A stretch of DNA of 64,000 nucleotides, from contig NC_089313.1 of NCBI RefSeq assembly GCF_036669915.1, forward strand, positions 14,525,940 to 14,589,939, read 5' to 3'. Below are positions 2,281 through 20,852 of this stretch, one piece after another. Each line of letters opens with the position of its first letter. Position 1 is the stretch's first letter. The position numbers were made by a program, and so were the translations under genes. The notes under the pieces were generated by a model. The model had not been told where the DNA came from. It ran no database searches and saw only the letters and a list, made by a program, of their open reading frames with translations. The DNA is from Pocillopora verrucosa (lineage: Eukaryota > Cnidaria > Anthozoa > Scleractinia > Pocilloporidae).

Positions 2281-2535
2281 AAAGTAATTTGGTTTTATCA
2301 ACTGAGTTGATACTGTAAGTTGACCACTATAAACGGAATATTTAAACGTGGCATTTCAAGCGTTAGCCCTCGGCAGTCGTCATTTGCTCTGACGAAAGGC
2401 TAACGCTCCAAACGTCAGTTTTAGAAACTCCTTACAGTGGTCAATTTACATTACCAAGTCAGCTGATTAAACCAAATTATCTTGTAATACCCCAACGACG
2501 CAGTAACACAGTTCCTTTAGAAACTTATCCCTTAA
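2281..2535. mobile_element. Penelope-like element remnant, inverted arrangement with hammerhead-like motifs
   Basis: An imperfect inverted repeat (left arm about 2282-2331, right arm about 2432-2482) encloses two hammerhead-like cores in opposite orientation. The plus-strand core has CTGACGA at 2389-2395, a short stem-loop and AAAC-GTC ending at 2416; the expected GAAA is CAAA here. The minus-strand core (about 2350-2382) has CTGCCGA where CTGACGA is expected. The right flank ends with the same cagcac/cagtaac-plus-tttagaaactta tail as the Penelope fragments near 13.4 kb and 25.0 kb. Hammerhead motifs in Penelope-like elements are known; assigning this copy is inference from that shared tail. 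Confidence 0.55.
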
Positions 2536-3845
2536 AAAGAGAAAGTAGAACAGGGTAGAAAGTTTAGAAAATTGAGTTTAAATGACGTTTGAGTGCTACA
2601 ATTTATTGCAAGAGCAGCAAACACTGGTTTGGAGGAAAGGTTTCAGCTCAACTGAAATTAAGGGAGTATTCACGCTCACTGCCGCGTTCGAGACACAATA
2701 TTGCTACATTATATCAGTCGCATGTTTAAAACATAGAATTTCGCTGGTTTCTGAGATCGTCAAATAATATATTTTGACAGGCAAGAATGTTATGAGATGG
2801 TATTTGGCACGTATTCCTGCAGTCCAGATTCATCGTATAAAATGTTGAAAATCTCAGCTTTCCTCAGCTTTATTTTTAAATCTTCGGTAACTTTTTCATG
2901 GTTTTTTCATTAAAAGTATAATTAATTATAAAAATTCATTAAGAAAAAGAAGGTCACGCAAGCTACCAAATAAAAGGGGAATCCTCCAGGTACTTTTGTC
3001 TGTTTTGAGTAATTTTTATTATAGTTCCGGCGCTTTTTAGTAACTTTTTCTCGACCTGCGCTTTTTCAATTTCAACTGGAATACTTCCTCTCAAAAACCG
3101 AGGTTTTCTTCTGTTCTTCCTGTGGCTCTCGACTCTATCACCGCCGGGAGTTTCTTTTGCGATCTCTAGATATGAAAATTCTTTATTCGCGTATCCTAAG
3201 CCAGCGTCTTCTATAGATAATTTTTTTTCATTAAGGAAGCTCTTAGAACCTTTTCAGGAGGACAAAATGAAATTTGCTCGAGCGAAAGAACAGACCACTA
3301 CGCCCAGTTACATCAAATCATGAGGACGCTGTTTCATAAACGTCAACATCAACAGAAATGCAAGTTCCTATTGGACAAAGCAAAACCTGTTCTAAGTCAC
3401 TGAATAATTTCAGGATCCCACAGGTGGATTGGCAGTTTAACAAAAAACCAATTTACAGTTGAACGCTAATTGTAGATATGATCTTACGTGAAACATGCAG
3501 TTTTACGGTTTAATGAACAAAACAGCAGGTACTAGTTATTACTGACATGCGGGGAATTCCATAGGTTCGATTGAAACCCCATAATTACCAGTTCGCTAGA
3601 GGTGTACATTTTTATTTTGGCGATAAAGTTTCGAAGTTTCGCATTTCTGAGGAGCAAAACTGGATAACAGACCCCTTCTGTGTTCGTGGTTGGCCAGGTT
3701 CCAATTTGCCTTGCCCTTTTGCTGACAGGCTTCTAATAAATATTAACGATTTCAATGAGTCTTTGCATAACCTTAATTGAGTGCTGGTATGTTTTTTCAC
3801 AGGGAACGAAGACAAGACTACGTCCGGTCCAACCTGAATAATCTG

Positions 3846-5720
3846 ATGGCTTTCCACCGGTGCATAGACTTGTCAGATGTTAATGTCCCCTTAAAAGGCC
3901 ACCAAGCCGAAGCGCACATACTGCACGTCAAATTTCATGGGATCGATCGAGACGATTACAAAGTTGAGTATGAAAAGCTCGAAAGCACTTTGCTGACAGA
4001 GTACTTGAAACAACGCGATGGGCCCGACTTTCATCAAAAACTTATGAAATTGACGTTTAATATTACACCAGTCGATGAAGCGAATGCCTTCTGCCAAAGC
4101 GTGCTAGAAAGAGGGATTTTTTGTCGTCAAAGCTCGTACTTCTTCCTGGGTCACTCGGATAAACAGCTAAAAGAAAAATCGTGTTACATGATGAAAGCTT
4201 CTAATGAAGAAATTCATGAGCTCTTGTCAAAGTTTGGCAATTTTTGGGAGGAGAAAAACTTAGCAAAGCGGGCTAGAAAAATCGGCATGCTCTTCTCAAA
4301 GTTGAACAGAACCATGCCATTGAGAGCAGACGAGTACACAGTCGAGCCAGATAAAAAGGGTGGAGTAGTTAGGTCGTACACTTTCACCGATGGATGTGGT
4401 TTCATGTCTCCAAACTTTGCTTCAGAACTTCAACAAATCTTTGAACTGAATTACAAGCCGAGCGCCGTCCACATACGATATCGAGGAATCGAAGGCGTGC
4501 TGTGTCTCAAAGATGATTTGACAGAAGTTAAGGTGCAGTTTCACAAATCAATGCAGAGGTTCTTCACACCAGACGAGAATATGCCTCACACGTTCAACTT
4601 CATCGATGTCGTGGATCACTCGCGTCCCTACGTTAATGGTTACCTTAATTCTCGAATGGTCATGTTGCTGGCAGAACGTGGTGTGTTCCCAGAGAATCTG
4701 GAAGATTTACAAGATGGCTTCCATGAACTAGTGGAAAACATGTGCAAAGAAACCGCAGAATACTTCCTTTCCTTCAAAGGAGAATTTCGACTTCTGCGGG
4801 AAATTCAAGAGAATGGAATCGACAGTGGTGTGAGAAATCGCCTGAAATTGTTACAAAAGCAAGAGCTAGACGAGATGGGAATGGCTGCCTACACAAGAGT
4901 ACTTGTTCCCAAATCCCGCGTGGTGTTTGCAGTGAGCGATCCTCTACATAAGCTGAAGTACGGTGAATGTTATTTCAACCCTACTACCCCGAGTGAAGAA
5001 GCAAGGAATTTCCCTAACGGCCAAAAGTTTTTGGTGACGCGCAGTCCGTGCTACGTCCCAGGGGATTTGCGCGTGTTGAAATTGACGAATGATCGCGAAG
5101 GGTACGAGAACTTGAAGGACTGCCTGGTGCTGCCCGCCAGAGGTCCACGTCCTCATGCCTTTGAATGTTCCGGCGGCGACTTGAGTGGAGAGAAGTTCTT
5201 CGTTTGCTGGGATAAGAAAATCATTCCAAGTGGGAACGAGAAACCATGCGACTACTCGCCCACAAAGGGAGCTACAATTCGTCGAACTTCGTCTAAATCG
5301 CTCGCAAAGGTAACTGAGAAATTCAAGAAAAATGACAATGGCAAAGAGGTGAAACATCGTGAAGAAATGATGCAGTACTTTGCTACATACTCTGATGAAA
5401 CACAGATTAAGATTGAACGAGAATACATGAAATATGCTACTGGCAATGGCCCATCATCGAAAGAATGCCGACACCTTAGTAAGATGTTATACCAAGCCAC
5501 CAATTTCACCAAAGATGCAAATGATCTCGAAAAGCAACTTGAAGAAACGGAACAACCAACAAGTTCGGAATTGCCCTCGAATTCACTACCTAACAGGCTA
5601 TCGTGCGTGTTTGCCATTAGCGAGAAAGAATCTGTGAATGAAATAATGAGGAGAATCGACAGTAAAGCAAAAGAGTTCTTCGAGCGAATGCAATTTGAAA
5701 CAAAGAAGAGCGAAGCTTAG
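3846..5720 (+). CDS. RdRP-A: compact cellular RNA-dependent RNA polymerase with a degenerate catalytic motif
   Basis: A single open exon of 624 codons encodes a eukaryotic RNAi-type RdRP domain. Visible family blocks include FTDGCGFMS, VRYRG-EGVL, SRPYVNGYLN, RVLVPKSRVVF, PCY-PGDLRVL and a closing PRPHA...SGGDLSGEKFFVCWD. In active enzymes of this family (for example QDE-1) the last block reads D-x-D-G-D and its aspartates bind catalytic metal. Here it is D445-L-S447-G-E449, so two of three are replaced and polymerase activity is doubtful. The start at 3846 aligns with the starts of copies B and C. A splice acceptor ends at 3802 and the frame stays open back to it, so upstream coding exons are possible; an ATG at 3789 lies in the same frame. 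The C-terminus (about the last 90 residues, rich in E, K and S) does not resemble B or C. The long intact frame argues against a simple pseudogene. The usual 1,100-1,400-residue family length is not reached. Confidence 0.88.
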   Translation: MAFHRCIDLSDVNVPLKGHQAEAHILHVKFHGIDRDDYKVEYEKLESTLLTEYLKQRDGPDFHQKLMKLTFNITPVDEANAFCQSVLERGIFCRQSSYFFLGHSDKQLKEKSCYMMKASNEEIHELLSKFGNFWEEKNLAKRARKIGMLFSKLNRTMPLRADEYTVEPDKKGGVVRSYTFTDGCGFMSPNFASELQQIFELNYKPSAVHIRYRGIEGVLCLKDDLTEVKVQFHKSMQRFFTPDENMPHTFNFIDVVDHSRPYVNGYLNSRMVMLLAERGVFPENLEDLQDGFHELVENMCKETAEYFLSFKGEFRLLREIQENGIDSGVRNRLKLLQKQELDEMGMAAYTRVLVPKSRVVFAVSDPLHKLKYGECYFNPTTPSEEARNFPNGQKFLVTRSPCYVPGDLRVLKLTNDREGYENLKDCLVLPARGPRPHAFECSGGDLSGEKFFVCWDKKIIPSGNEKPCDYSPTKGATIRRTSSKSLAKVTEKFKKNDNGKEVKHREEMMQYFATYSDETQIKIEREYMKYATGNGPSSKECRHLSKMLYQATNFTKDANDLEKQLEETEQPTSSELPSNSLPNRLSCVFAISEKESVNEIMRRIDSKAKEFFERMQFETKKSEA

Positions 5721-8700
5721 GCCCCAGTGAGGAGGAGAGCAGTAGCTTTTTATACCACCTTTTGATATCTAGCGGTCTGAGTGGAACAAAAAAGATAAAA
5801 ACTTTAAAAACCCAAAGTTGGGAATGTGCGTTACCTCATAGAACATCACTTTACAAAACACTTTTTGGAAGTTTAGATACTTTTTGCTTTCCCGCCTTCT
5901 GACGCTTGGTTCACAAGAACTCCTGACATCCAGCACAGCTTAAACATGGAGTGATAATAGTTAGTTTATAGATTGAAAATCGACAACAGGCAAACTCTTA
6001 GGTAATATTTCTTATGAAAACGAAACTTCATCTCGCAATCACTTATCATAATTGTTACCTTTCTGTACATACCAGTTACGATATTTGGAAAAGAGTGTGT
6101 ACGAGAGTATTCCTGTTGATAATTTTCCACATATAATTTTTATTTATACAAGATTCATCACCAAGGGCGAACTCCCTTTCCCTTTTTTGAAGCATATTCG
6201 TTGTTTTGAATCATATGCTAATATAGGACTATTTTGGAATTTGCTTTAGATTTTGTATAGTTTTTATCGGCTAAACTGAAAGACTTTTTCAACTCGATTT
6301 TTTTTGTCCTTTTACTTTCGTATTTAGTATCATCGGTGAAAAGTGCATGTATAAATAAGAGACTTGTGTTAATTTTTATTGGCTCTGAGTGCGCCGATTA
6401 ATCGTACAGCTGGAGCCTGTTGTGTTTTGTGTTATCGCCCTAGCAGGTGTTTTCTGGTTGTCACGCTTATTTTCACGTAACTTTTAAAATAAAAGGCTAG
6501 CGTGACGTCTTTGTAAAGCAAGCGAGTGATATTGGAGTGTATAACCCTTTTCAATATTAAATTCATTGCAATGTAGAAAAAAAATGTTACGTATAGCCAT
6601 GTTATCTTTATCAATTGCTTTGCAAAGCTGGTATTATTGTAAAATTGAAAACTAAATAAGCATTTAAGTGATGTTATTGCCTTAATTCGTGAACTAGGTA
6701 AGGAAACAAATAATCCGATTTCAAAGTTATATGCGGGCGGTGGGAACTGAGCATAATCATAACAGCATGTAAACCTGAACAACGCTTGAATTAAACAGTT
6801 TTTGATGAGACGTACAGTGGTAACTGGTGTTAATGGCGAAGTCGCGAAGATTCGACCGCGCTTTTCACGGTGCCTCTTTTGCCTCAACCCTCCCCATGCA
6901 AGACAAATGAAGTCCATAGAAAAAAACTTCCTGGCTGAAAACGGTGAATCTTTTGTCAAGATAAATTCCAAGCATCACATTTCAAAGCATCACATTGCCA
7001 GAAAAAGAGAGAATAACAAGTTATCGAACTTCAAAATGAAAACGAATTAATCAGTGGGGAGTTTTGGGATCGGAACACTGAAGAAAGTCCATTTAAAATA
7101 AGGATGGCGACTACTTTGAAAGAAGGAAAGCCTAGAGCAGAACAGAACAGATCAGTTCGTGAAAACTGCTATCAGTTGAGGTTTACCTTAGTTTGACTCA
7201 TTTGTGCTAAAGTTGAACTTCAAATTTTCAATCGATAGTGAACAAAAATCTTGGCAGCGAAATCCTTGTTTGCGTTAATCAGCCCGAGTGGTTGTGTTCT
7301 AATCGTACTTCGTGATCTCTATTGTTTACGACCTTCAATTCTTGTGGGATCTGAAACACATTAATAAAATATAAGACTGAATAAGTCTGCTAACTTATAC
7401 TTTCAGTATTTAACATATTTTAACATTTCCGAATAAATATTTCTTTTCTGAACGTGGAGAAATTGCTAAGATAAACAGTAGACACAAAAGTGAGAAGCAA
7501 TGAGAAACTTCCCACCTCTAAATACACAGAGATCGCAGACTTTCCACGGCCAAAATTATAATAGAACACTGTTTGCATTAAAAACAGATCTAAGTTTTTC
7601 ACTGTTCAGACAAGGTGGTGTTTTAATCGGAGACGGTCACCATGACACATGTGCGAGGGGTTTTTATTGGGGCAAATTTGCAATTCTCAGAAAACGGCCG
7701 GAAGTTAAAAAGACTTCTGAGAAGATTTTGAATGCTCCAATGATCTGCACGCAATTAGTACGTTACTCTATGCATGTCCACTTTGGTATCAGGTATATGC
7801 CGAGCTACTATCCACAAAATATTGCTCTGAAAGTTAGCTGGGAACTAAACTAGCTGAAAATTTGGGAAAGTCTACCGGCGAGAAAGATCCCGAAGGGCAG
7901 GTAAGGAAAAATTAAAGCGGATTCGCATGGGAATATCCGGAAATAAATGTCTGAATTTCGTAACTAGGAGATTTTGCTTTTAAGGTTCGAAATGCCATCC
8001 ATCACTAACTCACGGCGGAAGAAAATCATCGGAAAACTATAAAATTGTTTTTAAATGACAAAGCACGGCTACTATCATCAAAATTGTTCGACGAAGTAGT
8101 TTGTCACAATCAGCAACATCTACGAAATGACATGTGACGAACAACTGAAGCGGATGTTTGAGCAGTTCAGTCACAACACAAGGACAAAATTGTTGACTTA
8201 GTGGAGCTGATACAAAAAGAAAATCGCTCGTCAAAATAAATTACAAGGCTTTTGTGAAACATCATATCGGACAGCAACACCGGAATACGAAAAAGCGGAA
8301 ATCGAAAGAGGAAAATTGTTGCAGTGGACGAACCAAAGATGAAACCTAACATCTTTCAGTGATCACATTTTGAACGCCGAGCTACAATCGTCGAACAAAC
8401 TACCTCTATTCCGTTCTGTAAATTTGTACTAGTTTTGTCAAAATTAGCTGTTGAGTTCTGCGTTAAACCTCATTTACAATTTTCGCTGACATGTTAGTTT
8501 ACATTTTGCCTCTTCTGCATAAATCAGACAACAACAAGAAGTATACACCAGCAAACCCTGCAGGGGAGGGGAAGGGGAGGAAAACTCCTTTATCTGGCGC
8601 TAACTGCAGTGTGTGTCGCCAGACAGGACCGAACAGGGAATTGTTTTGGGGCCTTGAGCCTTAAACAGGGAATTAAATTTTTTTGATTTACCGGCGTCTT

Positions 8701-9087
8701 GAAAGGCCGTCTTTAGAGATGAAAGAAAAGAAAGAAAGAAGGGAGTTGAAAGTAGTTCCAAGTTCTTCGTTCGACTGCATGTACGTGTTAGTATCTTTCC
8801 TTTAGGCAAAAAATCACAAGGACGGATTGACATGTAGCGAATTGATGAACTATTTCACAACAATTCTGCGGCCTACTTGGAGCAAGAATAAGCGAGATGC
8901 TAGCCTCACTTAGCGAAAGTAGCGCATGAAAGCCTAATAATTGCGATCTTCTTTAAAATCAAAACATGACCAAGCTGTCCAGTCTTTTTGACATACTTTG
9001 CGACATGGGACTACAAGTTCCCGGACAGACCTGAAAAATAGAGGAAATGATCATAAATTCTTATTCTTCCGCTAGAAAATCCAAACG
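5721..9087. other. Intergenic region between RdRP-A and RdRP-B
   Basis: I found no gene supported by a domain or by spliced continuity. Open frames at 6432-6971 (minus) and 7500-7853 (plus) have no recognisable motif. The segment ends in a splice acceptor (AG at 9074-9075) placed 12 nt before the RdRP-B start, so part of it is likely intron and upstream exon of RdRP-B. Confidence 0.5.
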
Positions 9088-11447
9088 ATGGACCCATACG
9101 GTATACCAGATGATATGATAACAATACCTCCTAAAGACCACTTACAAACGGTCAAATACGTGAAACACTTTGACATACAAGGAAATCGGGTGCGACCGCC
9201 TATGAAGTACAACAAGATGGAAGGTGGCAACCTTTTCCTGGAATACCTCATGTCTGTGCAAGGTCCACAAGTGGTTGACAGGCTAATGACAGTAGGCTTT
9301 CGTCCTGAAAGAGGGGCGGAAACTGACTGCTCAGAAAGGATCCTAAAAAGAGGCATTCTTTTTAGCGGCGAGGTTTATCGATTCCTCGGCCATTCCAACT
9401 CTCAACTTAAGGAGAGAACTTGTTTTCTAATGAACGACACGGATGAGCACATTTACGAGCTGCTCGCGGAGTTTGGCAAGTTTTCCCAGATCAAATCAAC
9501 CGCCAAGCGTGCAAAGAGAATTGGACTGTTATTTTCCTCTTTCAATCAAAGCATAACTCTGGAAGAACACCAGTACGATGTTGTCAACGACATCGAGCGC
9601 GGAAATTATATTTTTACCGATGGATGTGGTTTTATGTCAGATTCATTCGCGCAAGAAATACAAGATGTACAACACCTTGAAAGCAAACCTTGTGTGGTAC
9701 AAGTCAGGTACCAAGGCTTTAAAGGTGTCTTGCTCCTCAATTCCCAGCTAACCGGTGGCGTAAAGGTACAGTTTCGTACGTCCATGAGGAAATTTGCTAT
9801 TCCGGATGAGCAGATGCGCCGAACTTGTACCACGTTTGGTGTCGTAAAGTGTTCCCGGCCATACACCATTGGCTACCTTAACAAGCAGATTACGATGCTG
9901 TTGGCGGACAGCGGAGTTAAGCACAGCTACCTAACTGGGCTGCAGAATGATTATCACGCATTGCTCAGAGAGGTCTTGGGCAGTGAACAAACCGCCGAGT
10001 TCTACCTGCGTATCAAAGGTGAGCACAAATTTCTCAATTGGTTGCACGACGATGGTTTGAAAAGTGACAGCTTACAAAGGGAACTCAAAAGTCTTCGTAA
10101 TAAGGAAATTCGCAAAATGCAGAAAGAATCCCCTAAGGATGGAAACGACGACACCAGTCAAACAAATGGTTCAAAATGTAAGCTGAGGGTTCTTGTTCCA
10201 AATTCAAGGGTAGTGTTCGGTACATGCGATCCATTTGACGACCTTGAGTACGGCCAGTGCGTTTTTCAACCAACTCTTTATGACGAGGTGCAAATTGCAG
10301 AGTTTCAAGCGGCTCAAGAAGTGATTATTGTTCGGAATCCCTGTTATCATCCAGGTGACATCCGTGTATTGAAACTCGTGAAAAACCTCCGAAAATACGA
10401 GTATCTCAGCGATTGCATCGTGTTCCCTACAAGAGGGAGCCGACCGCACGCCGACGAATCTTCAGGAGGGGATCTTGATGGCGATGAATTCTTCGTGAGT
10501 TGGGATCAGGATCTGATTCCTCCATGGCGCAGTGCTCCCTTTGAATACTCGTGTAACAGTCCACTCGTCGCGATTCCAAACGCGGTTAAAGGCTACTTGA
10601 ATCAGTTTACTAGTTACTTAAGAGATTTCATTACCAGCTGGGCACACCATTACATGCCATCATTGTTTGGCTCAGTAGAGCACGCCGAGAAAGCTAAAAA
10701 AGAGAAAGAGCGAAGACACATGCTCGAATACTTCACGTCTTTCAACAATGATCTGGTTGCAAGAGTTGACGCCGTCTTCATGAAGTATGCTGCTCTGTAC
10801 GGACCGTCATGTTGCGAATGCGTTTATTTGACCAGGTACACATTTGTTTCGGTTAACTTCCGGTTTCATTTAGACAAGTCAAGAGAATATCGATTGAGTT
10901 GATATTCTCTTAAACAAGTAGAATGTAAAGTTAAGTCACTAATGGTATGTAAGAAAAACTAAACAAGAGTTCATAATAGTGCGCATCATCATATCATAAC
11001 ACCTCTGAATCTCTTCCTTGGCGGATCACGCCAAGGACGCCGGCATAGCTCTTTGACTGAAAAAAATCTAAACGTCTTGCAAAAAAAAAAAAAAAGAAGA
11101 AAATTAAGACAAGTAAACGTCATTAAAAAAGTAAGAACCCAGAGGGTAGTATTTTACGGCATTTCACAAAATCTTAAAAACACCTGTTCTTCATCGACAG
11201 ATTTTTCTCAGACGCCGTTGACATGTTGGCGGAGAAGGACGTAGTGCTCGCCAAGGTTCGGGAATTGAATCGCGACTATCCCCGTGGATTTTTCCAGGAT
11301 GCATCCGCACGACAACCGGATTTCTTTAGACGCATCCTGATCCGAATGAAAATGCGGAAACCACCATTCCAACCAGGAGATGACGTGTGGACGCGCATGG
11401 AAGAGAAAACGCGATCATTTGTGGAGGAAATGTCGGGACGACACTAG
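9088..11447 (+). CDS. RdRP-B: compact cellular RNA-dependent RNA polymerase, catalytic motif intact
   Basis: Two coding exons, 9088-10835 and 11201-11447, join in frame (AG|A) to give 664 residues. Family blocks run in the expected order: ILFSGEVYRFLGHSNSQLKE near residue 90, FTDGCGFMS near 175, VQVRYQGFKGVL, KCSRPYTIGYLNKQ, RVLVPNSRVVFG, VRNPCYHPGDIRVL and SGGDLDGDEFFVSWD, with the metal-binding aspartates at 462, 464 and 466. Such enzymes make double-stranded RNA from single-stranded templates and feed Dicer; that role is known for the family, not shown here. The protein starts close to the core domain and lacks the roughly 350-residue N-terminal part of plant RDR1-type enzymes. A splice acceptor lies 12 nt upstream and the frame is open across it, so N-terminal exons may be missing from this model. 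The last exon encodes a short tail (PPFQPGDDVW-R-EEKTRSFVEEM) shared with copy C. Confidence 0.92.
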
Positions 11448-12087
11448 TATCGAGTTGCCCGAGTATGTTTACATATCTTGTCAAGCAGGAGCCCGATAAT
11501 TCTGCCTTAAGTCTTCATACGATGTTGACCATGTGAAAAGTACACATTTGGAAATTTTCTGTTCCCCAACAGAAAGTTTTCGTGTCCGGAGACTATGAAC
11601 AGCATTTTGTCAAAATCGGAGTTCCTTGCTCTCGCATCAACTCATCAGACATATGTTTCGCACGCTCGTTAAATCCAATTTTTTTTTGCAAATATCTATT
11701 TTTACAAAGAGTAGGTGAAAATTAACAGTAATTGATTGAATGATTAAGTTCCCCTGTGATACAGTGTTACTTTTACAATCATTCCATATTCTGTTCTTTT
11801 TCGTTTTTTATTAGCTCTGTATGTATCCCATATATTATTGAAAAAGCATCAACTGTGTTATACTTACGGAAGTAAAGATTTCCAAAGATCCACGGTTGAA
11901 AGAGGAAATTCTGACAGTTTTCGGATAAACATTCTTTCTGCCGACGGTTTAACTACCTCGCCTGAAAATACGACGGTGGAAAATAAACAGAAGAGTGAAA
12001 ACGTGGCAATCTAATCCGTAATGGTTAACTTGTACATTTTTAAATTCTCGCATTTTACTGACAAAGGTGCCGATGAGAGTTCATATA

Positions 12088-12297
12088 TTAACCCTTTACA
12101 CCCTAACATCCAAATGCATATTCTCCACAGTGTTCTGTATACATTTCCTAAGGAACTGACAAGAGAATTTGTTTAACAATCGAGAGCCTCTTTAGTTGTT
12201 GATCATTTTCTTTATTCCCATGACCTTAATGTTTGATCCAGGAGTGACACCGTAAGGAGAAGTTAGATGTAGAGTAACTCTTGGGGGTTAAAGAGTT
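12088..12297 (+). repeat. MITE-like element, family 1 (TTAA ends)
   Basis: The element starts TTAACCCTTTACACCCTAAC and ends GGGGGTTAAAGAGTT. It shares its internal blocks (tattctccac, a gagaatttgtttaacaatc-type block, ggagaa-ttaga) with copies at about 25158-25367 and 30566-30790 and, reversed, at 46501-46708 and 62214-62411. TTAA ends with CCCTTT/AAAGGG termini suggest a piggyBac-like non-autonomous family; that is inference. Confidence 0.6.
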
Positions 12298-12852
12298 GAG
12301 CTAAATGATACACTCATTCTGATTGGTTCTTTATCTTACTGATTCTGGATCATTGTTAACAACATTTTGCTTCATTAGCATGTAAAACAAATAGATTCTA
12401 TGTTGCAGTGCTTCTGTTAAGTAATGGATTACAGATCACTTTAGTGAGACACTCGGTTGCGCCTTGTGTTTTTTTTTTTTTTAAGGGACAATATGTAACT
12501 CATTGTAGTACAACAGTAACACGGAATCTATTTGATAAGTACGCAATGGAAAATTTTAAACGATCTGTAAACCTAGCCATCGTGAGATTATTTGTGGTAG
12601 AAAAAAGAAAACCCTGAACGTCTTTTCTGCGGGAAGGGTAAAACCATCTGGTTAACTCGACTTCAAAACAAAGAGTAAGCAAGACATTTACTACTACCAA
12701 AATTTTAATTTTTTGTCATCTTTTTTTCAGTGGTGAGTGGAAATTTTTTAACTAGCTAGGGATAGGAGGGTTTCTATTTTTCTTTTCAGCCTGTTTGATT
12801 GAAATTTTACATGAACAGTAAGAAGAAATCCGATCTTCAGAAATCAGTCTGT

Positions 12853-13511
12853 CCTGTTTCGCCAATGTATAACTTATTGCAATAAGTGCAAGTTATGCAG
12901 TAAATAACTTGGCGGAGGCACACGTAAAGTGATCAGTAATCGTAATGGATCTCAGATGGATCTCTTAATGGAGATCCATTAAGATCACTGATCACTTTAC
13001 GTGTACCTTCGCCAAGTTATTTACTGCATAACTTGCACTTATTGCAATAAGTTATACATTGGCGAAACAGGAAGACGACTAGGTGACCGATTCCGAAAAC
13101 ACCTTCGCGACGTGGAAAGAAATGACAAGGACGCATCTAAACCAGTCGCTAGACACTTTAATCTCCCTAATCATTCTAAACAGCATATGGCAGTTTGCGG
13201 CCTTTCCTTACATCTAGGCAGTTCGGAAAGCCGCATAACACTTGAAGAAAAATTTATCTACCAAATAGGCACCCTTAATCCCCACGGAATCAACGAGCGC
13301 TTTTCATTCAACTAATTTATTCCTGTCTTCTCGTCACCATATTCCCACCAATAGCGTATCTCCACTTTCTGTATATAAACCCACACACAACCCACAATTC
13401 CTCCAATCGCTCTGACGACGGGCTAATGCTCGAAACGTCAGCTTTTTTTACCCTTTACGATGGCCAATTTACGTTTTCAACTCAGTTATTAACAGTAAAT
13501 TACCTGCTATA

Positions 13512-13560
<49 letters not shown>
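12853..13560 (+). mobile_element. Penelope-like retroelement remnant: GIY-YIG endonuclease 3' part with inverted duplication
   Basis: The plus-strand frame 13001-13315 encodes about 100 residues of a GIY-YIG endonuclease (CITCTYCNKLYIGETGRRLG, then RF-KHL and a downstream LEEKFIYQIGTLNPHGINERFSFN-type ending, given here only in part), the C-terminal domain of Penelope-like elements. The reverse transcriptase part is absent, so the copy is 5'-truncated. The first 85 bases of the fragment (12987-13071) are repeated in reverse at 12853-12937 with about two mismatches and a 49-nt spacer that is itself palindromic. The 3' tail carries a hammerhead-type motif (13405-13445). The ORF is a relic and no full element is present. 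Confidence 0.78.
13405..13445 (+). ncRNA. Hammerhead ribozyme-like motif of a Penelope-like element
   Basis: The core reads CTGACGA (13412-13418), a stem-loop GGGC-taat-GCTC, then GAAAC and GTC at 13437-13439. Stem I is short (GCT upstream pairs with AGC downstream), and stem III is reduced to about two base pairs with no loop. Penelope-associated hammerheads are known for a minimal stem III and are thought to act as dimers, so the shape fits. One extra base sits between CTGACGA and stem II, so cleavage is uncertain. Confidence 0.55.
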
Positions 13561-14790
13561 ATTCATTTGATAAAAACATTAGCCTAGAGATAAGATCTAA
13601 TCTCCGAGTCTTACGAATCTCTTGAGAGGAAAATGGACCGAGAATGAACTGGGACCGAAACAGATTTCTTAGAAAATGGCCGGAAGTTGACTCGCGGGGC
13701 TTCAGAACAAATCAGTGAATGATCTCAACGATCATCTGATAGTTTTGACGAACATCGCCTGAGCTTTTTTCGGAAATATTTCTTAAAGCTTATGAGGAAC
13801 TTTTCTTCAAAGAAATATTACAGAGGTGAGTCAAATGAATTCAACCAATAACGGATATACTTTATAAATACAAATGAATTAGTGGGATGTCGAAAATTAA
13901 ACGTACATATGTGATTGTTTTTGTCTGCCTCGCCTGACACGAATTGTTCAAAAAGGCGAAGGCAGCACAGTTTTGAAATTACTCTGTCGATGAAGCAGGA
14001 CAAGCTACACATTTACCTTCAGCGTAAACAATTTTACACGAGAAGGCACATGATGTCATTCTACAGACAAAGAAAAGCCGTTTTGTTTACGTATTTAAAT
14101 TGAAGTCAATAACCGGCCAAATAAAACTGTGTTGGCCAAAAATTGCGAATTTCTAAAACCATTGACTCCGGTGTAAACTCGAATGAAGACCATTGTGAGT
14201 CTTCACAAACTGAATGAAAATATTTTGGTTTCTGAAACGTAGCCATTTTAAATTTGAAGAGGTCTGTATTTAGCAATCGAATTGAATTTCAAGTCAGAGA
14301 ATACTGTGCTTGACGATCGGACTGTTAAGATCATATCGGTCTGACGTTTCACAAGAAAAAAATATTACAAAATACTTTTTTTCAATCGACCAATTGCTAA
14401 AGTGGAGTTGACAACCGAACCGATAGCAGTAGTGAGGGGTTAAAGATTATCCCCGACTCTGATCGAGTTTTACAAAAAATATTAATCGTCACATGATTCA
14501 GTGGTAACCACGCTATTCAAGCAAAATTGTAGTGGTGGACTAATTTATATCGCTGTTTCTGCAAATAAATAAGACCTGTCTTTACTTACGGATTATGGCC
14601 TCACGGACAAAGTCGTGAAATTATCATGGAAGCATCACGGGTACATCCCGTTTGACACGATTCGGGGATATTCAAGAGTAACATGTGTTTTCCCTTTCGC
14701 AAACGCTTGTTCGATAATAATAGCGCGACGATCAAAACCGCGTTTTCATATTGCGCTGAAATCTGTGTTTATCATAAATAAGGGAATAAC

Positions 14791-14886
14791 ATGACTTTTT
14801 TCGGGAATATTGTTTATTTGCGCCCTTGTAGTGTCGCAAATGACACTACAAGGGCGCGAATAAACAATATTCCCGAAAAAAGTCAT
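14791..14886. repeat. Near-perfect 45-bp inverted repeat with 6-nt loop
   Basis: The left arm (14791-14835) and right arm (14842-14886) are reverse complements at 44 of 45 positions, with the loop gcaaat. There is no open frame and no match to another repeat in the window. Transcribed in either direction it would form a stable RNA hairpin. It could be a foldback transposon remnant or a small-RNA precursor; nothing visible decides which. Confidence 0.85.
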
Positions 14887-15549
14887 ATCATTATTATCAA
14901 TAAACAAGGCCAAATGATATCAAGAATGCGAGTTTTAATAATACAAGCTAAGTGAATGACGAATTCAAAGTCACTTCAAATCATCATGTAAGTGTTGATT
15001 GAACAAGCTATTAAAGAATCAACTCAGTCCAGTGAACTTATTGAAAATTACCGGAAAAATGCTTAAAATCGTCTATAAATAATAGGCATATCACAAAGTT
15101 AACCTTAAAATGATCCATCGGATGATGAAGCAAGAACCAATCAGCTGTAGGGCTGATAATGCATTAGCAGCCCGCTGTCAGTCTTTTGCGGCCCGCTGAG
15201 CGTGTGTTTTGAAGAGGCCGATTTTTCTATTTGGCCGCGTATATTGATAATAATAGGCAGTAATGATGGTCCTTATTTCACAGTGACTTTCGCGCGACAA
15301 GATCTTCAACATTTTGTGACGATATATATATATATATATAATTTTTTTTCATTCTTGAGAGCTTCTTAGTGAGTTCATTCAAAAGTTGAGAATAAAAATA
15401 GCTCTAGTCGTGCATGAACCATTACGCGACCAGTATTTCGCCAAAACCCAAACAGTGCAGGGAATATTACTTATTTTTTTATTTAAGTGACAAGGCTATG
15501 TAGCTATTAAACATAATTTTTCCGTAATTCTTTTCAGAAAACAATCAGG

Positions 15550-17811
15550 ATGGAGCCCTACTGTATACCACCCGAGATGATAACAACTCCTCCCGAAGAC
15601 CACTTAAAAAAGGCCATATACGTGAAACACTTTAACATACACGGCGGTCGGGTGCGACCGCCAATGAGGTACAACAAAGTGGGAGGAGGTAACCTTTTCC
15701 TAGAATACCTGATGTCTGTGCAAGGTCCGCAAGGAGTCGACAGACTAATGACAGTGGGTTTTCGTCCTGAAAGAGGCAGAGACGAAGACTTCTCGGAAAG
15801 CATCTTAAAAAGAAATATTCTTTTTAGTGGCGAGATCTACCGCTTCCTGGGCCACTCCAACTCTCAACTTAAGGAGAGAACTTGTTTTCTATTGAATGAC
15901 TCGGATGAAGGCATTTACGAGCTGCTTGCGCAGTTTGGCGAGTTTTCCCAAATCAAGACAACCGCTAAGCGCGCCAAGAGAATTGGGCTTTTGTTCTCGT
16001 CGTTCGACCAAAGCATTATTCTGCAAGAAACCCAATACGATGTCATCGATGACATTGAGGGCGGAAAATACATCTTCACCGACGGATGCGGTTTTATGTC
16101 AGATTCATTTGCGCAAGAAATTCAAGATGTACACCGTCACCTTGAAAGCAAACCTTGTGTGGTACAAGTCAGGTACCAGGGTTTTAAAGGCGTCCTCGTC
16201 CTTAATCCTCGGTTAAACGATGGTGTTCAGGTTCAATTCCGCAAGTCCATGAAGAAATTTAGCATTCCAGATGAGCGAGTGCGCCTGAGTTGCACCACGT
16301 TTGGTGTTGTAAAGTGTTCCCGGCCATACACCATGGGCTACCTAAATAAGCAGATTACGATGTTGTTGGCCGACAGTGGAGTCAAACATAGCTACCTGCG
16401 ACAGCTTCAGAATAATTTCCATATCATGCTTCGAGAACTCTGTAGCGCCAGACAATCTGCCGAGTCATATCTATGTATCAAAGGAGAGCAAAAATTACTC
16501 GGTTTGCTGCATGACTTTGGACTGGAGAATCCTCGCCTTCAAAGACAGCTTAAAGCTTTTCGTGCAAAGGAGGTTCGCAAGATGCAGAAAGAAAATGCCG
16601 ATGAAGATGAATCCATTGTGACACAGACTTCAAGATGTAAACTGCGGGTTTTAGTTCCAAAATCGAGGGTAGTGTTCGGTGTGTGTGACCCCTTCCAATC
16701 CCTCGAATATGGCCAGTGCGTTTTTCAACCCACTCTCTTTGATGAGGAGCAGATGGAAGGTTTTCAAAGGGCTGAAGAAGTAATAGTCGTGCGAAATCCA
16801 TGCTATCATCCGGGTGACATCCGTGTTCTAAAGCTTATCAAGAACCAACCAGAGTACGCATATCTCAGCGATTGCATCGTGTTTCCGACGAAGGGAAGGC
16901 GACCACACGCCGACGAATCTGCGGGAGGTGATCTTGATGGCGATGAATTCTTCGTTAGCTGGGACCAGAATCTGATTCCTTCGTGGCGCAGTGCTCCATT
17001 TGACTACTCAAGTAACAGTCCGCTTGTCATGATCTCCAACGCATTTAGCCACTTGGGACAGTGGACTAGTTCCCTTCAGAACCGCATTTCTAGTTGGGGT
17101 TGCAGCAACATGCCATCTGTGTTTGGCACAGCTGAGGAGGCCGAGAGGAAAAAGAAATTGAAGGAGCGAAGGCACATGCTTGAGTACTTCAGCACGTACA
17201 ATAATGATCTAGTGGCGCGTGTCGACACTATATTCATGAAGTACGCTGCCCTTTATGGTCCGTCATGCCAGGAATGTGTTAATCTGAACAGGTAAACAAT
17301 CCGTTCTGGTTTGATAGTCTTTCAGAATAATCCTGCTTCGCAGAGTTTCACGAATGAATCAAAGTTTTTATTCCTAAAAAAAAAGGCTAGAATATCTCGT
17401 GTTCTCAGGCCTTACAACTTTACAAAATGCACGGGTTTCAAATGAGTTAATAAGACAACGTTCAGGTACTTTGGGCTGGAGAAAGAAAAAGTTTCTCTCA
17501 CTGCAGACTAGTAGAGGTTCCAGTTAACTAATATCGTTTACTTATACTAAATGGTGTTTCCTTGCTCCATCAGATTTTTCTCAGACGCTGTGGACATGGT
17601 GGCACAAAAGGTTTTTGTGCAAGGCACGCTTCGCAATTATGAGCGCAACTATCATCGTTTGGCACGAGATCCATTAGCGGCGCGTGTGGATCCTGTGGAA
17701 TGGTACCGTGTCTGGATGCACCAAAAACCGCCGTTCAATCGAGGAGACGACGTGTGGACGCCAATGGAGGAAAACACACGTGTATTTGTGGAGGAAATGT
17801 CAAGGAGATAA
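15550..17811 (+). CDS. RdRP-C: compact cellular RNA-dependent RNA polymerase, catalytic motif intact
   Basis: Exons 15550-17291 and 17574-17811 join in frame (AG|A) to give 659 residues. The protein is close to RdRP-B over its whole length, so the two are tandem duplicates. The motif AGGDLDGDEFFVSWD carries aspartates 461, 463 and 465. The blocks FTDGCGFMS, VQVRYQGFKGVL, KCSRPYTMGYLNKQ and VRNPCYHPGDIRVL are all intact. The start is 12 nt after a splice acceptor, the same spacing as in B, and the frame is open back to it, so a 5' UTR intron or further coding exons upstream are both possible. The last exon carries the shared tail PPFNRGDDVW-PMEEN-R-FVEEM. An AATAAA overlaps the stop codon (17810-17815). 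Expected role: synthesis of double-stranded RNA for small-RNA pathways (family knowledge). Confidence 0.92.
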
Positions 17812-19958
17812 TAAACTGCACTGTTTTGCTTGCAAGTATAGTCTTAGAAGATGCCTATTCGTGGTAAAACCACGCATCGAGTCTTGACTCAATGGTAGTA
17901 CTATGGGATATATCTACTGGTAAAATTGGACCAGCTCAAGTTTTGCGCGAGTTCCAACTACTGGAGAGAGATGGAGAGAGGGTGGAGAGAGGGTTGGGGT
18001 GAGTTGTGCAACGCAGCAAGAGTCATATTGGAGGATATATGTTTCATTCTCGCCTACTGCCATCCGGCCTTAATTATTTGCGTGACCTGTTCCTCGCGTT
18101 CTCTTTGTTTAATCTGAAGCAGCACAATGTTATATAGTCGCAATCCTTTCACTACCGAAAATACTCCTTAACTTGGTTTCGCGAGCAAGTAGTTGTATTT
18201 GCTTGCGGCGCGAGGAGAAAGAAAACGTGAGCTCAGCTCATGAACTTTTTCTATCTGGCTATCTGCCATCATGCTCACCCCTCACGCTCACGTTCTCATT
18301 TAAGTTAAATCACTTTACGCCTTCACTTGCTCCCAGCCATAAAATTGAGAGGATCTACATACTTTTATTCGACTTATGTTGCGTAAATAAGTTTATATCA
18401 ATGTTATATCTGGTTAACTTTAAGGAATGAATTCCGTCTGAACTTACGTTATTAAACAAAAAAAGAAAAAAAACTGGTGCTCAACGATGACATCGCTTCG
18501 CAAGTAACAAAGGATCGAGCCTACGCAGCACTCCTAAAAAATTATTGGAGATCATTCATCGGGGTAACTTTTGAAGTTCCATTCTTATGAAGATCTGACA
18601 AAAGATAAATATAATCAAATATTATCAACTAAATACCACTCGAGCAATCCCTGTTGTTGAGTGTTAAAATAATTTTCCAATTGCAAAGTACGGCCATATC
18701 TCTCTATCAAGGGGACAGGAAGGGCATCCACTACATCAGTTATTTGTTTAATCCTCAATCATATTTTGTTGTCGAAATTTGATACCTTTTTTTTTTCTTT
18801 CTTTCTTTCTCTTCCTATTTCATAACTAGTAATTAGAGCAAATGGCGGTGGACATTCTCCAGATCCGCTTTTGTAGGCATTATGCAAGCACAGCGAGAAC
18901 CTCCGGACATCTCCGATAATCAACAATCTCCGGCGAATAGAAACACAAAGACTGTGAAAATTGCACACAACCAAAAAGGCCAGATTAGTACAAATATTTC
19001 TACTTATTATTGGCCCATGTGATTTCTTCAGCAAGACACGCGGTTTTTCCCTTTACAGTAAACAAAATTGACACGCCTAACAGATTTATTTTTATTTCGG
19101 AGCGATTGCTTTTGTTTCAAGGACCTTCTATGAAACTCTATCTTGCGCAAAAATGACAGCGAGTAAATGGCATATTTTGGCTACCTAACACAATGTGTTA
19201 ACATTCCTTTGCATTACGTGAGTTTTCACCCGTTGACCTTCAATCAATTCCGTCAAAACAACAGCAAGACATATAAAATTATCATTCCCTTATGGTCATA
19301 GAGAACAACACTTCGTCTTAAATTTCCAATCGAGACCGCTCTTTGTTTGCGCGGTTGGACAGAACGTCGTTTTGGTCGTTTAAAGCAACGCATCTTGATT
19401 CACGTCCCAAGAAAAGCTGTCTCCATGGCAAAGCCGTTTTACTAGGCTACGAGAACAAAGACCCTTCTAAAAATTCGTCATCAACTCGAAGACGAGACAG
19501 CTTGAAGTGCGAGGGCGGGAACGATCGAGGCACTATATCAATTGGTGGTAGACGACACAAAAGCGGGCTCTCGAAAGAGAAAGCGAAAATAATCGATTAC
19601 AGTAAACGTGTTGTTCAGTTTAATGAAAAGCAGGCGGCTGGAGCCATTTTGAGGAGCAGCAAGGTTGGAATTTGGTCTGCACAAAGGAATAGAATCGGAA
19701 TTATTACCCTCATTAGAAGGATATAGCTACACTCGGTTAAACAGATACTATGAACGACTTAACATTAATTTAGATCTCCTTGTTCGAGGTCAACTAGTCG
19801 TGACCAAATATTCTGGACGGTTCGTAACCTAACGGTTTTGGTATATTTAAAAACATTCGTGATTCTTTCGAAAAGCGGATTTGGTACGGAAAGCGGTTCC
19901 ACAACTCGTAGTCAGCCGAAAAAACACGGCCTGTACTAAAATAGAAGCAAACGCGGAC
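17812..19958. other. Intergenic region without a recognised gene
   Basis: Nothing coding is supported. The interval has a purine-rich stretch around 17956-17998 (repeated GGAGAGAG units) and a T/C-rich tract near 18785-18813. An open frame at 19343-19726 has no ATG at its start and no domain; it might be 5' UTR or part of the next gene but I cannot show it. Confidence 0.45.
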
Positions 19959-20852
19959 ATGGATGGATCAGAAGAGCTAACAGGTATTAGCCCTCCGCAA
20001 TCCACAGATGCCAATGTGGAGCAATGCGGTAGAAAACTGTCTTTGAAAGATATAAGGCGATACGAAAAGAAAACACTACTGTGTCCGGGGGGATGTGGTA
20101 CAGATCTGGATCTAAATGATATCCCGACACACGATTGCATGAGAGATTTGAGGCAAAAGCTTGAGAGTGCGGAGAAGAAGCTTTGCGATAAAGAGGAGAA
20201 AGCGAAAGAAACAGGCGTGATGGAAAATACTTACAGAGAGCAGCTTGCATTGCAAGATTGTAAAATCGCTCAAATGTCCACCGAAATCAAAGAGTTGTTG
20301 TTAGAAAGATCACGTCGGGATGAGATGTTCAACAACAAGGAAACATTTTACAAGGAGCAGATTACAGCACTGATGGACCAAGTGGCGAAGCTGGAGAGGA
20401 AACTTCAATTACGAAGGCCTTCCAACCAAGAAGACGAGTCACTCAGTGAGACCAACGGTGCTAAAGAATGGGCATACAGATACGACAAACTACTGGCGGA
20501 TAAGATCACTCTGGAAACGCTCTTTCAGAGGCGCGAGCGCGAGTCTCAACGCGAAATTGACGCGTTAAAAGAAGAAGCAGCGATGCTGCGCGAAAGCTTA
20601 CATCTCGAGCGAGAAATGCTTTCGCTGGAGCACGACCATGCTACCTTCAACAAGTTAGCGGTTTTAACAGATCAGTTGGAGTCTCTAGTACAGCACAAGC
20701 AGCATCGAGGACGCCACAAGAGTAGTCACAAGGCTAAGGACTTAGGTAGCGAAACAATAAATGGGAGGATTCGTAAACGTGTACCGAACTCCGTTGGAAG
20801 TTCAAATTCTGATACAGTCGACGAAGAGGACATGGAGGTCGTCAGCAATTAA
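19959..20852 (+). CDS. Intronless coiled-coil protein with TRAF-type zinc-finger-like N-terminus
   Basis: One open exon of 297 residues. Residues 41-62 hold a compact Cys/His cluster (C42-x3-C46-x11-H58-x-C60, context CPGGCGTDLDLNDIPTHDC) resembling the TRAF-type zinc finger that follows the RING in RNF41- and PDZRN-type ligases. No RING is visible. Residues about 62-130 and 160-265 are heptad-like, charged and rich in E, K, Q and L, so a long coiled coil is expected. The tail is basic (KQHRGRHKSSHKAK) then acidic (DTVDEEDMEVV). The start is the first ATG of the frame; the frame is open upstream to 19881 without an ATG. A RING exon upstream would turn this into an E3 ligase model, but none was found. 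The long intact frame and sensible composition support a real gene; its function is unknown. Confidence 0.62.
   Translation: MDGSEELTGISPPQSTDANVEQCGRKLSLKDIRRYEKKTLLCPGGCGTDLDLNDIPTHDCMRDLRQKLESAEKKLCDKEEKAKETGVMENTYREQLALQDCKIAQMSTEIKELLLERSRRDEMFNNKETFYKEQITALMDQVAKLERKLQLRRPSNQEDESLSETNGAKEWAYRYDKLLADKITLETLFQRRERESQREIDALKEEAAMLRESLHLEREMLSLEHDHATFNKLAVLTDQLESLVQHKQHRGRHKSSHKAKDLGSETINGRIRKRVPNSVGSSNSDTVDEEDMEVVSN

Follow-up and report, generated by a model that had tools for sequence, protein, structure and literature searches.

The 64,000-nucleotide stretch of the Pocillopora verrucosa genome that was analyzed here as a whole (hereafter, the window; C2:14525940-14589939) carries within its positions 3846-17811 three plus-strand genes, A, B and C, of the cellular type of RNA-dependent RNA polymerase (RdRP; Pfam family PF05183), the limits of this segment being the conserved methionine of A and the stop codon of C. 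An earlier note on this DNA had placed three such genes exactly there, which the Pfam matches confirm (A, E = 1.6e-84, 285 bits; B, E = 5.4e-98, 330 bits; C, E = 2.4e-98, 331 bits; curated cut-off, 23.8 bits), each spanning approximately 490-520 of the 582 profile positions. The gene models, built from sequence and homology without transcripts, depict A as a compact single-exon gene of 624 amino acids (3846..5720), and B (664 amino acids) and C (659 amino acids) as two coding exons around a GT-AG intron. Exon 1 of B (9088..10835, core domain) ends in GACCAG followed by GTACAC, and its exon 2 (11201..11447), recognized by translation and homology to exon 2 of C, encodes a trigger-loop-like region, a C-terminal helix and the stop; exon 1 of C (15550..17291, core domain) ends in GAACAG followed by GTAAAC, and its exon 2 (17574..17811, from translation and homology) closes with the stop at 17809-17811. 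As the three have separate starts and separate Pfam matches, they are best modeled as three genes rather than as exons of fewer, and the depiction of B and C as close copies and of A as the divergent one holds as well, given a protein identity of 72% between B and C (657 codons) vs. 38% between A and B (612 codons).

These genes are the right-hand end of a larger cluster. A whole-genome PF05183 search of the 353-Mb, 52-contig assembly returned at least 35 matches (a lower bound), 13 of which are confined to 75 kb of contig C2 and make up 11 RdRP loci, ordered from left to right as k1(+), k2(-), k3(+), k4(-), k5(-), k6(-), k7(+), k8(+), A(+), B(+) and C(+), with k1-k8 outside the window, on its left; the local expansion that had been claimed for these compact RdRPs is, among the matches listed, larger than claimed. 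The other 22 matches listed represent five genes (one on contig C10, three on contig C11 and one on contig C1). Self-comparison revealed segmental duplications that pair k2 with k5 (85%), k2 with k4 (93%), k7 with k8 (80%) and B with C (77%), and k3, k4 and k7 are broken copies, in which the catalytic triad was not scored. The location of the cluster on a 20.2-Mb contig of this assembly makes a contaminant scaffold unlikely, with plant RDR2 as the only outgroup in the tree described below. About 5 kb to the left of k1 lies an array of tandem repeats, each about 78 bp long (L010, about 2528-3409; C2:14462528-14463409). The intron of B (10836-11200) and that of C (17292-17573) sit at equivalent positions close to the 3' end, and A, k1 and k6 (by eye) continue through this site without an intron, so that either a gain in B/C or a loss in the other copies might be the case.

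By sequence, the best relatives of solved structure are Arabidopsis and maize RDR2 of the alpha group (A, E 2.6e-42; B, E 2.4e-47), the core and the DLDGD loop being common to these and to B and C. Near-full cluster copies start at a homologous methionine just ahead of the Pfam domain; the first alignment column common to B and Arabidopsis RDR2 pairs residue 90 of B with residue 458 of RDR2 (RDR2 was aligned from residue 456 on), which, by extrapolation, would put the start of the cluster proteins near RDR2 residue 370, and their ends lie shortly behind a stretch that was assigned to the trigger loop by eye. With the domain limits of PMC8713982 (whose text, like that of all the other articles cited here by such numbers, was available in part) and the start, stop and length of the proteins as the criteria, the N-terminal RNA recognition motif (RRM), beta-barrel-like and helical-bundle domains, as well as the C-terminal head, appear to be absent, i.e., the full RDR2-like architecture is not predicted for the cluster proteins, and the description of them as compact, starting near the core and lacking the long N-terminal part stands. 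An RdRP may remain active after losing no more than its N-terminal part, as N-terminally cut QDE-1 does (PMC1750930); head truncations, however, inactivate plant RDR2 and RDR6 (PMC8713982), and because the head is apparently missing, polymerase activity of B and C, as predicted from their motifs, is likely rather than certain. The trigger-loop lysine (RDR2 K923) was matched by eye in A and the contig C10 gene, with alanine in B and C, and no conclusion is drawn from this.

Catalytic residues and phylogeny

The catalytic triad DxDGD of the second double-psi beta-barrel (DPBB2) is present in B (10471..10485, plus strand) and C (16930..16944, plus strand) as an intact DLDGD and absent from A, in which the corresponding loop reads D-L-S-G-E (5178..5192, plus strand). 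In Arabidopsis RDR2 the loop (830-DLDGD-834) is needed for activity, which both D834G and DGD-to-AAA changes abolish (PMC8713982), and a survey of eukaryotic RdRPs found the loop to vary mostly at its second, non-aspartate position, with Mucor RDR2 being the one further exception among complete sequences and Albugo being unclear (PMC4791657). Seven genes of the coral have DLDGD intact (B, C, the contig C10 gene, all three contig C11 genes and the contig C1 gene), and the loop is altered in six out of six other cluster copies that cover it, reading DLSGE in A, DLSGK in k8 and RVGGD in k1, being deleted in k6, and being shortened and replaced in k2 and k5.

The lesions extend to DPBB1, whose Gln-582 and Lys-589 (RDR2 numbering, used throughout) contact the initiating nucleoside triphosphate (NTP) and are reported to be invariant in RDRs (PMC8713982). 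Gln and Lys are found at these positions in all seven of the intact-triad sequences compared vs. His and Glu in A, where the Glu stands within G-I-E-G-V (4485..4499, plus strand); across the six loop-altered copies K589 is changed in every one (mildly, to Arg, in k1) and Q582 in all except k6. The seven intact-triad sequences (which include B and C and exclude C11a and C11b) share 69 invariant residues, 55 of which are kept by A, unevenly so, as it retains 54 of the 64 non-catalytic vs. one of the five catalytic residues (Q582, K589, D830, D832 and D834; Fisher p = 0.0051). The same test returned p = 0.015 for k8, 0.012 for k1, 0.054 for k6, 0.057 for k2 and 0.055 for k5, although the catalytic set was taken from the RDR2 paper after the alignment had been seen, and relatedness among the six copies makes their p-values interdependent. 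In C11a and C11b, 63 of the 63 covered invariant positions are kept. A, which thus differs from RDR2 by being without most catalytic residues, is filed here as a homologue and, from its residues, a predicted pseudoenzyme rather than a polymerase, the protein being probably inactive. The proposal of the earlier note that the expansion reflects selection on small-RNA amplification is not supported for A, whose catalytic residues are lost, nor for the five other loop-altered copies, and is a possibility for B and C.

A tree of 15 sequences (LG+G4, 478 columns, k4 left out, plant RDR2 as the outgroup) separated the cluster from all other sequences with a support of 100, and another split set the cluster plus the contig C10 gene apart from the C11 and C1 genes and plant RDR2, so that, when rooted on RDR2, the C10 gene is the sister of the cluster. 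Within the cluster, B and C split from the remaining copies. The best tree unites the loop-altered copies in one catalytically dead clade (support 66; 90 and 87 in further analysis), and the approximately unbiased (AU) test does not reject two alternatives to it (p-AU 0.116 and 0.147; 0.115 and 0.060 without the active-site columns); catalysis would therefore have been lost either once, as in the best tree, or repeatedly, two separate losses being compatible with the AU test. For A and k8 the matter is simpler, since they share three catalytic lesions (D832S, K589E and Q582H), which by parsimony means that the loss predates their split.

Pattern scans of viral contigs, run with B alone and with an alignment of A, B, C and the C10 gene, returned no viral relatives, and a viral origin of the cluster RdRPs was set aside on this result.

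Selection on the altered copies

As the lesions are common to A and k8, the divergence of the two (synonymous divergence, dS, 1.34) came after the loss, and over it the ratio of nonsynonymous to synonymous change (omega) is well below 1, at 0.221 (bootstrap range 0.170-0.278, 622 codons), and lies between 0.13 and 0.28 in six overlapping stretches. The pair with intact triads, B/C, is much alike (0.224, bootstrap range 0.186-0.285, 60 resamples for each pair), the ranges overlapping, and k2/k5 is at 0.63 (0.456-0.898; likelihood-ratio test against omega = 1, 7.1). The pairs A/B, k1/B, k1/k2, A/k6 and k8/k6 are saturated in dS and were left unused; likewise, the k1 and k6 branches are long and saturated and their loss is undated, so that only A/k8 and k2/k4/k5 bear on evolution after the loss.

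In a branch model of nine sequences and 603 codon columns, a single omega for all branches was 0.19, and with the tips left free the A tip (0.186) did not differ from the catalytic branches (0.161; p = 0.71), with omega = 1 being rejected, before any correction, for A (p = 0.025), k8 (p = 0.018), k6 (p = 0.005) and k1 (p = 0.0005). The openness of the 624-codon frame of A points the same way: neutral simulation from the sequence of A itself (substitutions only, 500 runs per distance) accumulated a mean of 25.9 stops at a distance of d = 0.6 and 20.6 at d = 0.4, and none of the 500 runs was stop-free at either, whereas at d = 0.07 the stop-free runs numbered 2/500 for k2 and 0/500 for k5. What a decayed copy of this family looks like here is seen in k7, which is closer to k8 in DNA identity (79.7% over 2736 columns, flanks included) than A is (71.7% over 1619 columns), the stretches compared being different ones, and which lacks any long open frame: the two long stretches in which it matches k8 overlap in different frames and contain 13 and 19 stops, not all of them in the ancestral frame, yet neither frame is open. 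A, taken together with k8, combines lost residues, an open frame and an omega below 1 after the loss, i.e., the marks of a pseudoenzyme kept by selection.

Possible roles of the altered copies

The reading towards which we lean, if only slightly, is that A is a pseudo-polymerase kept by selection for a role other than RNA copying, most likely that of an RNA-binding sensor, decoy or competitor in the response to double-stranded RNA (dsRNA): the triad aspartates and NTP-contact residues are lost, yet selection has kept the gene, so A should be doing something other than copying RNA. The cluster would have started from one compact cellular RdRP, trimmed to the slab, the two double-psi barrels, the bridge and the trigger region and already devoid of the N-terminal RNA-recognition part and, apparently, of the head, and would grow by segmental duplication and lose copies by decay. 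B and C, which keep the chemistry residues, would probably be its working, or potentially working, polymerases; A, with much of the conserved fold sequence retained and two of the three triad aspartates and the NTP-contacting Gln and Lys gone, would most likely bind RNA, whether single- or double-stranded, in its polymerase cleft without synthesis, and might act as a sensor, a decoy or a competitor of the active RdRPs in a dsRNA-triggered, possibly antiviral, response. A considerably bolder proposition, which we hold as tentative, is that the cellular RdRP fold has been turned here into a non-polymerizing RNA-binding family, a fast-turnover cluster of compact pseudo-RdRPs that, next to two live copies, would sense or sequester dsRNA of viruses or transposons.

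Several observations weigh against retention of A by selection, and most of them are in line with plain birth-and-death, in which catalytically inactivated copies arise and degenerate, A would be a pseudogene that has been lucky or was released from constraint recently, and the cluster would matter through B and C alone. Segmental duplications are evident, k3, k4 and k7 are broken copies, and the frames of k8 and k6 are interrupted, so part of the dead clade is decaying. In the two-ratio model, omega of the dead clade (0.214) exceeds that of the catalytic branches (0.152; log-likelihood -16076.6 vs. -16079.6 for one ratio, a gain of about 2.9), so that this clade, taken as a unit, is under somewhat weaker constraint, and neither the k2 tip (omega 0.97, p = 1) nor the k5 tip (p = 0.47) departs, by itself, from what absence of constraint would give. 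Even the broken k4 has a low omega with k2 (0.39, 229 codons) and k5 (0.27, 228 codons), which means that omega records past constraint and not present function. Furthermore, the A-tip test is modest, and of the six tips only k1 and k6 pass Bonferroni correction, with synonymous change saturated on both, as well as on interior branches; the A/k8 dS is itself near saturation; and the fold of A is presumed from its sequence to be kept, an AlphaFold model from a three-sequence alignment having too low a confidence (mean pLDDT 31.4) to be used for any inference. We nevertheless consider birth-and-death alone unlikely, as the lesions of A are older than its split from k8 and the gene still has its full open frame, which neutral simulation never preserved, and the low omega reported above, and as k1, a copy of 691 codons with the triad lost, rejects omega = 1 most strongly, albeit on a saturated branch.

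Retention of A for other than RNA copying has also to be set against functions closer to that of a polymerase. Cellular RdRPs of this family serve small-RNA amplification in C. elegans, plants and fungi, and with DLDGD intact in B and C the whole cluster, including A, could be amplifying small RNAs against transposons or viruses, provided that the altered loop of A still coordinates metal. This we regard as very unlikely, the least probable of the readings considered: A is changed at the equivalents of D832, D834, K589 and Q582, changes at the same RDR2 loop abolish activity, the head, whose truncation inactivates RDR2 and RDR6 (PMC8713982), seems to be lacking from the cluster proteins, and no secondary small interfering RNAs (siRNAs) were found in Nematostella (PMC12768352). 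Scarcely better placed, and improbable in our view, is the idea that, instead of sensing RNA, the dead paralogues regulate B, C or the C10 enzyme as dominant-negative proteins or as partners in dimers; QDE-1 is indeed a dimer with one site thought to be active at a time, and dead and live copies are adjacent here and could be co-expressed, but the QDE-1 contacts are made mainly via the head domains (PMC1750930), which the cluster proteins seem to lack, and dimer regulation of the live RdRPs is less likely for this reason.

Should dead copies indeed be under selection, they would be direct evidence of a second, non-catalytic function of eukaryotic RdRPs, of which RNA interference (RNAi) amplification has been called the only known one (PMC6396948). 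Why animal RdRPs can be induced and yet not amplify small RNAs would then become testable on defined genes, among them a set of live (B and C), dead-but-kept (A) and decaying (k7) copies. The bolder proposition of an RNA-binding family would, if true, also offer one reason for cnidarian RdRPs being induced by dsRNA without secondary siRNAs. On the findings in Nematostella, Stylophora and amphioxus given below, animal RdRPs may be defence genes with a rapid turnover that need not serve amplification.

Related systems and other features of the window

Among cnidarians, Nematostella vectensis has four RdRPs, namely RdRPa1, a2, b1 and one more. RdRP1-3 are induced by poly(I:C) (PMC8476169), three of the four RdRPs respond to a dsRNA mimic, yet three methods gave no secondary siRNAs (PMC12768352), and a meeting report has the RdRPa1 knock-out losing control of viral load (PMC12172373). 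These four genes are said to be well conserved in Hexacorallia, and the available portions of the texts mention no cluster of the present kind. An enlarged coral RdRP set is not new, having been noticed in Stylophora pistillata, for which eight candidate RdRP-like transcripts (data not shown) were given vs. the four of Nematostella, the portion of that article at hand having nothing on a cluster or on active sites (PMC3962355). In Branchiostoma lanceolatum, likewise an animal with part of its RdRP genes lacking an intact site, three of the six have an intact DbDGD (by subtraction, three do not), and no clear RdRP activity was found; its authors allow that truncations may stem from defective gene prediction, and, unlike here, no compact tandem cluster and no selection test on the altered copies are mentioned in the available text (PMC6396948). 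In B. belcheri one of six RdRP genes is missing from half of the tested individuals (PMC12373286). No account of a cluster such as this one was found among titles and abstract openings on inactive or clustered animal RdRPs in the open-licence literature.

The contig C11 genes are of a different build, as at least two of the three have the layout of the helicase-RdRP fusions of Hydra, Nematostella, Dictyostelium and oomycetes, whereas the cluster proteins are the RdRP core only; among animals, a 2016 survey had this layout in Hydra and Nematostella alone (PMC4791657, as far as its available text goes), so that its occurrence here is in keeping with a cnidarian genome. In the two C11 genes scanned (L020:1-4137 and L019:3-3914), the DEAD and Helicase_C domains are in frame with the beginning of the RdRP domain; L020 has, in addition, a PH_met_RdRP (metazoan RdRP-associated PH-like) domain, with a match to the RIG-I C-terminal domain ahead of the helicase falling just under the cut-off (24.3 vs. 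25.6 bits).

Elsewhere in the window, Rfam gave no match at the gathering threshold, and ten other open frames had no Pfam match. A 329-amino acid open frame (19863-20849), which by eye has a Cys/His-rich start and a coiled-coil-like remainder, had no Pfam or PDB match. Between B and C, at 12840-13085, lies a near-perfect hairpin of more than 100 bp, whose arms (12852-12953 and 12971-13072) are 96% complementary and whose folding z-score is -31. It overlaps a 107-amino acid frame with a GIY-YIG domain (12992-13312), which we take to be, probably, the remnant of a Penelope-like element, and the hairpin is a possible source of hairpin-RNA-derived small RNAs.

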